This document shows positions 19,968 through 32,175 of a stretch of 32,175 bases of DNA, one piece after another. The stretch's first letter is position 1, and every line of letters starts with the position of its first letter. The translations under genes were made by a program, and so were the position numbers. Below the pieces are notes generated by a model, which saw only the letters and a list, made by a program, of their open reading frames with translations, ran no database searches and had not been told where the DNA came from. The DNA is from Candidatus Blautia excrementipullorum (GTDB lineage Bacteria > Bacillota > Clostridia > Lachnospirales > Lachnospiraceae), in the NCBI GenBank assembly GCA_019118645.1, contig DWYN01000072.1, positions 1 through 32,175 of the forward strand. Direction: 5' to 3'.

Positions 19968-20402
19968 TTAAAGCTGGCCAAGGATCATGAAGGAAATAAT
20001 CAGTCCGTAAAGGGCAATACCTTCTGCCATGGCTACAAAAATAATAGATTTACCGAAAAGGGAGCCGTCCTCGCTGAGCGCTCCCAGGGCAGCGCTTGCG
20101 GAGCTTGCAACTGCAATACCGGAACCAAGGCCGGAAATGCCTGTTACAAGAGCGGCGCCGATGTATCCGAGGCCTGTGGCAAGACCGTCCGCGGAAGCGG
20201 CATCAGCGGCCTGTACGCCGGAAGTTCCTGCAAACATTACTACGGAAGCCACAAGAATGACTCCGAAAAACATAAAGCAGTTGGCGGCCAGGGATTTTTT
20301 GTAGCGTTTCCGGCTTTTTTCGCCGAGGAAAAAGCAGCCGAAGGGGACGATGATGCTGAGAATCAGTGCGATTGCGGTTACAATTTGAATAATCATGTTC
20401 AT
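19968..20402 (-). CDS. ntpK: V-type ATPase subunit K (membrane rotor proteolipid)
   Basis: The 144-aa protein has four membrane helices forming two hairpins of the c-ring. Only the second hairpin carries the classic features: Gly/Ala-rich TM3 (GLGYIGAALVTGISGLGSGI) and the ion-binding Glu127 in TM4 (AMAEGIALYGLI). The first hairpin (residues 4-60) has lost the Gly-rich pattern and any acidic residue. One carboxylate per double hairpin matches the enterococcal NtpK layout. Whether it carries sodium or protons cannot be decided here. AGGAGG is 8 nt before the ATG. Confidence 0.93.
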   Translation of the reverse strand: MNMIIQIVTAIALILSIIVPFGCFFLGEKSRKRYKKSLAANCFMFFGVILVASVVMFAGTSGVQAADAASADGLATGLGYIGAALVTGISGLGSGIAVASSASAALGALSEDGSLFGKSIIFVAMAEGIALYGLIISFMILGQL

Positions 20403-20501
20403 GGTGATATCCTCCTGAAGATAATGAATTTAAATGCTCATTCAGCATTCCGGAAAATGCTGAATAACTGCGTTTTGTATATTTCCGAATTTTCCGTATT
20501 T

Positions 20502-25485: not shown

Positions 25486-25558
25486 GCGTCTTTAGCTCAG
25501 CTGGCAGAGCACCTGACTCTTAATCAGGGTGTCCAGGGTTCGAACCCCTGAAGACGCA
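25486..25558 (+). tRNA. tRNA-Lys (anticodon CTT)
   Basis: A full cloverleaf can be drawn. The acceptor GCGTCTT pairs with AAGACGC, followed by discriminator A. The D arm is GCTC/GAGC, the anticodon stem CCTGA/TCAGG with loop CTCTTAA (anticodon CTT at 25519-25521), and the T arm CAGGG/CCCTG with TTCGAAC. CCA is not encoded. Confidence 0.97.
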
Positions 25559-25565
25559 CTAAAGG

Positions 25566-30421: not shown

Positions 30422-31966
30422 ATGAAGAGAGAAACCGTTGTAGTACTGGATTTCGGCGGGCAGTATAATCAGCTGATCGCGCGCCGCGTAAGAGAGTGCA
30501 ATGTGTATTGCGAGATTTATTCTTACAAAACGGATATTGAAAAAATAAAGGAGCTTCAGCCCAAGGGAATTATTTTTACAGGAGGACCCAACAGTGTGTA
30601 CCTGGAGGATTCTCCCACATATACCGATGAAATTTATAAACTGGGAATCCCGATTCTGGGAATCTGCTATGGTTCTCAGCTGATGATGCATCAGCTCGGG
30701 GGCAAGGTTGAAAAGGCTCCAGTCCGCGAATACGGAAGAATTGAAGTGAATGTGGACACAAATTCAAAGATTTTTGAAAACGTATCTCCCAAAACTATCT
30801 GTTGGATGAGTCACAACGATTATATCGCAGAAGTAGCGCCCGGATTTCATATTTCCGCATGGACAGACGACTGTCCTGTGGCAGCGGCCGAGAATCCGGC
30901 GGAAGGACTTTATGCCGTTCAGTTCCATCCCGAGGTTCTTCACACCCAGGAAGGAACAAAGATGCTTTCTAATTTTGTGTATAATGTCTGCGGCTGTTCC
31001 GGAGACTGGAAGATGGACTCTTTTGTGGAGGACTCCATCAAAGCCATCCGTGAGAAAGTTGGAGACGGCAAAGTGCTCTGCGCGCTTTCCGGAGGAGTGG
31101 ATTCTTCTGTGGCAGCCGTACTCCTCTCAAAGGCTGTCGGCAGCCAGCTGACCTGTGTATTTGTGGATCACGGCCTTCTCCGCAAGAATGAAGGCGACGA
31201 AGTGGAGGCTGTATTCGGACCAGAAGGCCCGTACGACCTGAACTTTATCCGCGTCAATGCCCAGGAGCGTTTTTATGAAAAACTGAAAGGCGTGGAGGAA
31301 CCTGAGCGCAAGCGCAAAATCATCGGCGAAGAATTTATCCGCGTCTTTGAGGAAGAAGCAAAGAAGATCGGCGCTGTGGACTTCCTGGTTCAGGGAACCA
31401 TTTACCCGGATGTGGTGGAAAGCGGCGTTGGCGGCGAATCCACGGTCATCAAATCCCACCATAATGTCGGCGGACTGCCGGACTATGTGGATTTCAAGGA
31501 AATCATCGAGCCGCTCCGCAACCTGTTCAAGGACGAGGTGCGCAAAGCCGGCCTTGAACTGGGTATTCCGGAATACCTTGTTTTCCGTCAGCCGTTCCCG
31601 GGTCCGGGACTCGGCATCCGCATCATCGGCGAAATCACCGCCGAGAAGGTGAAAATGGTTCAGGATGCCGATGCCATCTGGCGCGAGGAGATCGCAAAAG
31701 CCGGATGGGACAAGAAAGTCAACCAGTACTTTGCAGCCCTGACCAACATGAAATCTGTGGGGGTTATGGGAGACGAGAGAACCTACGATTACGCCATCGC
31801 GCTTCGCGCAGTGACAACGACCGACTTCATGACGGCTGAGAGCGCAGAAATCCCCTGGGAAGTGATCGGAAAAACAACCAGCAGGATTGTGAATGAAGTT
31901 CCGCATGTGAACCGTGTCATGTATGACTGCACCGGAAAACCACCAGCAACGATTGAGTTTGAATAG
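30422..31966 (+). CDS. guaA: GMP synthase (glutamine-hydrolysing)
   Basis: The 514-aa enzyme converts XMP to GMP using glutamine and ATP. The N-terminal class I amidotransferase has catalytic Cys82 in GICYGSQ with His169 and Glu171 in HPEV. The ATP-pyrophosphatase P-loop SGGVDSS is at 223-229, and a C-terminal dimerisation domain ends in [20 protein letters not shown] 30422 has GGAGG 6 nt upstream; the open frame before it has no site. The 3' end of guaA is a known integration site for genomic islands, and a recombinase gene faces it here. Confidence 0.97.
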
Positions 31967-31973
31967 ACACCAC

Positions 31974-32016
31974 ATCTCTGGGAAGCCTTATTTTGCAGGC
32001 TTTCCAGAGATTTTTC
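31974..32016 (+). terminator. Terminator of guaA
   Basis: ATCTCTGGGAAGCCT (31974-31988) pairs with AGGCTTTCCAGAGAT (31997-32011) over 15 bp with a G-U pair, followed by TTTTCTCTTTT. It separates guaA from the convergent recombinase gene. Confidence 0.88.
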
Positions 32017-32027
32017 TCTTTTGTTGG

Positions 32028-32175
32028 CTACAAATTGGCTACATCTGCCATTTGGCTACCATTCGGAACTGTCGTTCCGTTCATCACATTTTCAAGCTGG
32101 GCAGCTACTTCTGCCTGCTTATTCGGATACAGATGACTGTAAGTATTTAAGGTCGTCTGTATTTTTTCATGTCCG
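32028..32175 (-). CDS. Tyrosine recombinase/integrase, C-terminal end (partial)
   Basis: The minus strand at the window edge reads GHEKIQTTLNTYSHLYPNKQ and then an AEVAAQLENVM stretch, ending QMADVANL and a TAG at 32028-32030. GHEKIQTTLNTYSHL is the conserved box of phage and conjugative-element integrases, with the His of the active site and the nucleophilic Tyr. The 5' part lies outside the window. It converges on guaA with about 60 bp between stop codons. The motif TTGGCTAC appears three times within its last codons (32025-32032, 32036-32043 and near 32052-32059). Confidence 0.9.
   Translation of the reverse strand, partial: GHEKIQTTLNTYSHLYPNKQAEVAAQLENVMNGTTVPNGSQMADVANL

Follow-up and report, generated by a model that had tools for sequence, protein, structure and literature searches.

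The 3′ end of guaA in a Blautia contig (the window, that is, the whole contig of 32,175 bases analysed here) very probably carries, at 31955–32175, the attachment site on the integrase side of an integrative element, which is most likely mobilizable (an IME); we put the probability of this reading at about 0.88. It is drawn from sequence comparison, in which the junction between guaA and an integrase gene, an attachment core, a hairpin and short repeats, the recurrence of the junction elsewhere, the presence of one element at two sites and the matching ends of most two-ended relatives all point the same way.

The guaA end and the integrase end in the window

The gene for GMP synthase is complete in the window and its product closes normally, in TIEFE followed by the stop codon, as judged from the reading frame and from its Pfam families. 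Beyond it, the minus-strand frame 32174–32031 translates to GHEKIQTTLNTYSHLYPNKQAEVAAQLENVMNGTTVPNGSQMADVANL, with a stop at 32030–32028; these residues, the last 48 of the protein in the window, form the C-terminus of a tyrosine recombinase. They are 88% identical to residues 325–372 of a 372-aa integrase (locus L032; the copy in locus L102 is identical), and a Pfam search with the 48-residue end alone returned no match. The integrase of L102 has the domains Arm-DNA-bind_4 (PF14657) at residues 10–53, SAM-like (PF14659) and Phage_integrase (PF00589). The integrase gene adjoins the intact guaA end, with 61 bp between the two facing stop codons, and the contig ends 209 bp past guaA. A sequence-only reading of this DNA had described a recombinase gene that ends about 60 bp from the guaA stop codon and faces it, and an undisturbed guaA C-terminus, and both descriptions agree with these coordinates. 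The features are as follows.

30422–31966, plus strand: guaA, GMP synthase (Pfam GATase and GMP_synt_C; reading frame)
31955–31966, plus strand: attachment core GAGTTTGAATAG, encoding Glu-Phe-Glu-stop of guaA; this 12-mer is duplicated and bounds elements in relatives
31974–32011, plus strand: hairpin and T tract, terminator-like, between the core and the arm sites (−24.8 kcal/mol, z −5.9)
32024–32031, plus strand: putative arm-type site 1, TTGGCTAC, of a pair with 11-bp period and its TG at core+70; architecture conserved
32035–32042, plus strand: putative arm-type site 2, TTGGCTAC, as site 1; like the pair near the far end of L102
32052–32059, plus strand: third TTGGCTAC, possible further arm site, at the same place in several close integrase relatives
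32028–32175, minus strand: 3′ end of the tyrosine integrase gene, truncated by the contig end (frame; 88% identity to a relative)

The core consists of the last three guaA codons and the stop codon, 12 bp in all. The hairpin has a 15-bp stem and probably ends guaA transcription, arriving with the element; a scan for terminator-like sequence was weak on its own (one match against 0.5 in shuffles), and hairpin-like sequence, judged by eye, follows guaA in many relatives. Elsewhere in the window, a tRNA-Lys(CTT) gene lies at 25486–25559, and this gene too is often targeted by such elements.

On the reading that we prefer, the integrase, one of the Tn916-type group that has an arm-binding domain at its N-terminus, would have inserted the element from its circular form into the final 12 bp of guaA. 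The element would supply a guaA end of its own, with the last codons, the stop and the terminator. Since the element carries a copy of the guaA end, guaA would keep its sequence, stop codon and terminator and remain unharmed. The core sites at the guaA end would be bound via the core-binding and catalytic domains of the integrase, and the arm-binding domain would dock on the arm pairs of its own element, such as the TTGGCTAC pair; a matching TTGGCTAC pair is predicted close to the far end, about 120 bp in from it, where a second core, GAGTTTGAATAR, would form the boundary. Such joint binding of core and arm sites is that of the lambda and Tn916 models.

Junctions, mobile elements and arrays in relatives

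A contig scan with the closest full-length integrase (372 aa) yielded 49 loci, of which 45 were inspected (L138, L142, L149 and L150 were left out). By manual count, the integrase end adjoins a guaA end in 23 of these 45, in several genera. In 11 loci the core or a one-mismatch form follows unrelated sequence, which in several cases is probably the far end of another element, and the other 11 have no clear core. Within the closest integrase group, the distance from the core to the integrase end is equal, and the hairpin and the TTGGCTAC pair are held in common. Because the junction recurs in independent genomes, it is more than a product of chance. This recurrence in other genera, together with the duplication of the 12-bp core in relatives, bears out the earlier suggestion that an element begins at the 3′ end of guaA.

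Movement of such elements is apparent from two sets of near-identical copies. A stretch of 9,752 bp is identical between L102 (Coprococcus comes MSK.16.63, at guaA) and L103 (Blautia luti MSK.16.34), while both flanks diverge; together with the shared MSK.16 label, this suggests recent transfer within one donor. The L103 copy sits inside a gene beside a frame of 2,560 codons that looks like an ICE gene (region L103, 11181–19494). Its interrupted target frame is of 184 aa and had no match in an NCBIfam search. We dropped the idea that this B. luti target naturally ends like guaA: the open frame continues, apparently in phase, past the far junction, so the guaA-like end in B. luti was brought by the element. 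The element junctions of L102 and L103 share only GAG with both targets. As GAG alone is common to both element ends and both targets, exchange is placed at the start of the core, GAG-TTTGAATAR, and the integrase seems tolerant of a poor secondary site. The second set is an element of about 8.72 kb that is 99.97–99.99% identical in genomes G005, G040 and G051; the guaA gene of G040 is 73–74% identical to those of G005 and G051, which are 98% identical to each other. This element (L041, L047, L042) carries lincosamide-nucleotidyltransferase-like and ABC-F ribosomal-protection-like genes, identified in the L042 copies with scores under the curated cut-offs, and, among the matches listed, copies of its integrase with 100% identity occur in G124 and G245, which belong to other genera.

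Elements also accumulate at this site. Downstream of guaA in G001, G005, G023, G024 and others, tandem arrays run head to tail with the 12-bp core at each boundary, and their genes, from clustering and reading, encode integrases, XRE regulators, relaxases, and mobilisation and replication-type proteins. Short units of about 330 bp (twice in G051, once in G004) or 440 bp (twice in G023) follow some cores in arrays and may be what remains of elements after deletion, reduced to their attachment units. What had been taken as a 13.65-kb 'element' in G051 is now treated as two intervals, one of them of 8.73 kb. The sequence-only reading had called for comparison with a site free of the element. In G004, a 22.5-kb interval is followed by 333 bp that match, at 86% identity, the DNA directly after guaA in G044, whose guaA site is without the repeat pair; G004 is the filled and G044 the empty site. 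G028 was given up as the empty site of G001, the match failing beyond the attachment region (60% over 1.5 kb). What follows guaA varies across relatives: integrases and contents differ, and there may be a tandem array or no element that can be recognised. The opposite pattern, in which the same recombinase stands at guaA in all relatives with no variation in cargo, was looked for and proved false.

Gene content bears on whether the element is mobilizable or conjugative. The 3′ end of guaA is an established insertion site, as the earlier reading had stated, and among its occupants are Tn5801 and streptococcal ICEs and IMEs, according to passages of three papers (PMC4844618, PMC4701971, PMC5357655). 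That the window element is a self-transmissible ICE of the Tn5801 kind is the less likely reading. In its favour, excerpts of the first two place Tn5801, CW459tet(M) and ICE_SmiB6_guaA at this gene (PMC4844618, PMC4701971), and the guaA intervals of relatives reach 22.5 kb. Against this, the closest element delimited at two ends, that of L102, encodes a MobA_MobL relaxase along with primase-like and regulator genes, and of its 11 listed ORFs the 10 scanned with Pfam matched no mating-pore family, which favours an IME. The same element (L102, 1444–11195; same coordinates in L103) includes an epipeptide-like RiPP set, namely a YydG-like radical SAM protein, a YydI-like ABC ATPase and a YydH/LiaK-like protease, with all matches under the curated cut-offs.

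Since the window is the entire contig, the element is not traceable past 32175. The sequence-only reading had expected a second copy of the guaA end, and this expectation held in relatives, where two-ended guaA-adjacent intervals with matching repeats place the copy at +7.4 to +22.5 kb; a second core is also present in C. comes, which carries the closest type of integrase. It did not hold in the window's own assembly, where the search pattern had only two other matches, with three mismatches each. This is weak as a negative, because a match needed sequence beyond the 12-bp core and because the assembly, 89% complete, lies in 184 contigs. A second TTGGCTAC pair with fewer than three mismatches was likewise absent from the assembly (six matches with three mismatches, against 21 in the control), and of the two negatives this one carries more weight. 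The same genome has a second attachment site of like kind on another contig (G000:C55, L073, about 730–2983), with the core GAGTGGGAGTGA, hairpin-like sequence, a TGGCAAC pair at 802–820 and an integrase at 1934–2983; the preceding frame is not guaA. On a further contig (G000:C67, L074), a broken integrase piece at 20295–20489 is 75% identical over residues 180–244, the contig ending at 20615.

These observations also bear on whether the window holds a decayed remnant, an immobile integrase end lacking a far end, which we consider improbable, somewhat more so than an ICE. The failure to find a second core or repeat pair elsewhere in the assembly fits such a remnant, as do the incomplete units of relatives, for example a 6.6-kb interval in G001 without a recognised integrase, and the broken piece in G000:C67. 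However, the integrase end in the window reads as an open frame and shares 88% identity with an intact relative, the hairpin and repeats are unblemished, and in an assembly this fragmented a missing far end is unsurprising. We favour an intact IME, and the window copy may well be complete and mobile.

Putative arm-type repeats and integrase residues

The repeats next to the core were surveyed at guaA in relatives. Of 98 relatives, 64 had a match, and 34 genomes with enough 3′ sequence formed 31 groups; the 41 survey rows included seven in which the same site had been entered twice, and near-copies were merged. An 8-mer pair with an 11-bp period and at least 7/8 matches occurs at 19 of the 31 nonredundant guaA sites (14 perfect), compared to 3.2% of 2000 control windows, and other periods from 8 to 21 occur at 0–2 of the 31; 12 sites are without a pair at 7/8 matches. 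The motif varies between elements and is mostly TGNNNNN. Successive attachment sites delimit 18 intervals, of which 13 carry a pair at each end and five at one end only. Twelve of the two-ended intervals are nonredundant, and in 9 of these an automatic rule finds one motif shared by the two ends (shuffle mean 3.5, P = 5e-5). The first interval of G001 would make ten, being a register miss with TGGTTCT repeats at both ends, and the end motifs truly differ in two of the 13 (the third interval of G005, and G058).

For the repeat type of the window, far ends were sought at 29 loci over up to 10 kb each. A far pair together with a core was found in L102, L112, L115 and L124, a far pair alone in L103, where an intact core is not expected, and in L114, and weaker far pairs in L113, where a core is present, and in L122, where it is absent; the remaining loci had no pair or core within up to 10 kb. 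Relatives display, with exceptions, a short motif on each arm at a set distance from the core, and the window shows the near arm. Its third TTGGCTAC lies inside the integrase gene, 17 bp past the second, and G001 likewise has a third copy of its own motif. The triple TTGGCTAC, tentatively proposed as arm-type from the sequence, indeed looks arm-type, a pair of 11-bp period at a fixed core distance being present at both ends in most two-ended relatives, and the repeats are best read as putative arm sites of the integrase.

If the repeats are arm sites, the arm-binding domain might be expected to vary with them. The arm-binding domain of the window integrase itself lies off the contig, and the relationship described below is drawn from relatives. 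The training set paired 58 integrases with arm motifs: 26 came from the loci gathered first, and a family-wide search, with 55 loci of which 33 had a site, supplied the other 32, L167 being left out (pair offset 60, off register). Training motifs were aligned in register by hand. Considered as a whole, the arm-binding domain was no better than the catalytic domain as a predictor of the motif, either in the 26 loci (rho 0.57 versus 0.59) or in the larger set (0.37 versus 0.44; partial 0.18 versus 0.30), and its partial correlation for distant pairs, 0.08, was matched by 31 of 300 permutations. As the domain is not favoured as a whole, we claim the single-residue result only. In a column test on 42 representatives below 80% identity (L102 numbering), the strongest links joined motif positions 7 and 6 to residue 16 and position 3 to residue 28. 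Residue 331, outside the arm-binding domain, came next with position 5 (z 8.0), ahead of residue 12 with position 4 (z 7.4). Seven of these representatives are of the TGGCTAC type and have Met12, Gln14, Arg16 and Lys28, a set that the window integrase is predicted to share.

A combined set of 54 representatives displays these relations directly; it omits seven held-out loci whose copies differ or have no TG (L248, L252, L269, L279, L290, L297 and L302), all of which stay in the held-out count given below. Arg16 goes with a motif ending in AC in 24/24 cases and Tyr16 with an ending other than AC in 25/25, and one Trp16 also goes with AC. A polar residue 28 accompanies G at position 3 (30/30), a small or aliphatic one A (20/21) and an aromatic one C (2/3, the third being mixed A/C). 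Among 333 integrase columns, the best for motif positions 3, 4, 6 and 7 is in each case an arm-binding-domain residue; for position 5, the leading columns in this set lie outside that domain. Lys14 occurs with AC at motif positions 5–6 in 9/9 representatives, the integrases concerned being partly related. On a tree built without the arm-binding domain (130 branches), residue 16 changes seven times and the AC end six times, and all six coincide; for residue 28 and position 3, 7 of 10 changes coincide.

The co-variation also weighs on the idea that the 11-bp repeats are sites of an excisionase (recombination directionality factor) and not of the integrase, which seems rather remote to us. Sites of such factors are also direct repeats one helical turn apart, as part of the text of PMC7498355 has it, and the motif tracks the whole integrase lineage, as a co-inherited excisionase site would. 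Yet two-ended intervals have a pair at each end, set at a constant spacing from the core, a residue of the arm-binding domain is the best column for four of the motif positions, and on a tree from which that domain was withheld, six branches show a change of residue 16 along with one of the AC end. Binding of the repeats by the integrase would account for this co-variation. An assembly artefact joining guaA wrongly to an integrase fragment is scarcely credible: the join does lie close to a contig end (about 210 bp away), and the assembly is fragmented, but the same junction of guaA, hairpin, repeats and integrase, with equal spacing, is present in other genomes, for example in L106, L127, L143 and L144.

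The residue rules were written down before they were applied to 80 new loci among the matches listed, near-copies of the query (89–100% identical) and some others being left out. Motifs were called by script, and an attachment site was called in 45 of the 80, leaving 35 without a call; the offset of the pair from the core was 70–72 in 44 of the 45. Over both repeat copies of these 45 held-out integrases, the rules hold in 155 of 161 applications; 2000 shuffles of the motifs average 82 and never exceed 106. Because some held-out genera are also represented in training, we give filtered counts as well. Restriction to integrases less than 80% identical to training and to each other, with TG in a copy, leaves 13, for which 43/44 applications hold, and restriction to arm-binding domains less than 80% identical leaves 16, with 48/52 (shuffled mean 24, maximum 38). 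Motifs that are new relative to training and obey the rules include TGACAAC (L242) and TGATACT (L238, L247 and L257). The rules fail at L279 and L290, both with motifs absent from training, and also at L252, L269 and L297; L279, L290 and L302 are probably wrong site calls, which were retained in the 155/161.

On this comparative evidence, we lean towards a broader picture in which guaA of Lachnospiraceae is a shared berth where element families stack, using one 12-bp core and, at each end, a private pair of arm motifs 7 bp long (TGNNNNN, repeated with an 11-bp period). These motifs would be read by a simple code in the arm-binding domain, with residue 28 specifying base 3, residue 12 base 4, and residues 14 and 16 bases 5–7, and TTGGCTAC would be one such address.

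Known guaA elements and the meaning of a proposed arm code

Insertion at guaA itself is ordinary and already known. Passages of PMC4844618 describe Tn5801 and CW459tet(M) as Tn916-family ICEs inserted in the 3′ end of guaA; like the element here, they have a tyrosine integrase and this insertion site, and 11-bp direct repeats are given there as their putative core. Tn5801, as portrayed in that text, is conjugative, with Tn916-like modules and tet(M), whereas the relative L102 is IME-like with epipeptide-type cargo; the comparison is one of descriptions, not of integrase sequences. In the streptococci, the sections at hand of PMC5357655 report IMEs with Tyr_3 integrases that insert at guaA or rplL, as well as IMEs that insert in genes of ICEs, and those of PMC4701971 place ICE_SmiB6_guaA at guaA and state that the repeats of guaA ICEs hold only the exact gene end. 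Both the Tyr_3 IMEs and ICE_SmiB6_guaA, as far as these sections go, share the guaA 3′ end as their site with the element here. They differ from the present case in its Lachnospiraceae hosts, multi-element tandem arrays and element-specific arm pairs, the Tyr_3 elements being compared by description.

The guaA 3′ end is also the site of elements outside Bacillota, among them epsilon15, CMGI-3, GIsul2 and ATE-1, and others, according to portions of PMC8138268 and PMC5704250; the site is common to these four and the element here, but epsilon15 and CMGI-3 belong, in the same portions, to the IntSXT subgroup, unlike the element here. The arm-binding domain of the Tn916 integrase is built of three strands and a helix, and the IntTn916 subgroup has N-terminal arm-binding, core-binding and catalytic domains, as excerpted from PMC8138268, an order matched by the integrase of L102, the relative from which the domains of the window integrase are predicted. 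Unlike Tn916 and Tn1549, as they appear in those excerpts, the present integrases are site-specific at guaA, and a residue–base relation for arm sites is added here. The nearest precedent for the latter comes from Oenococcus prophages, for which part of PMC8074189 proposes that the differing N-termini of IntF and IntB-F bind different attP arm repeats and coevolve with them; that part contains no residue-level rule, whereas about 26 motifs and a held-out test are available here. Among the open-licence papers searched, we found neither a residue-level arm code nor one that brings together guaA, Lachnospiraceae and an integrase.

What is new here is that residues of the arm-binding domain co-vary with the bases of the arm motif. 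Integrases that use one core site with about 26 arm motifs make up a natural collection from which the DNA specificity of arm binding can be read through co-variation. If true, the residue code would predict arm sites from protein sequence and help to delimit elements in fragmented gut genomes. It would also let an integrase act on its own element within an array of look-alikes, and different arm motifs may be what stops stacked elements from excising each other. In this way, the code poses a testable answer to the question of how elements stacked at one site avoid mutual excision.
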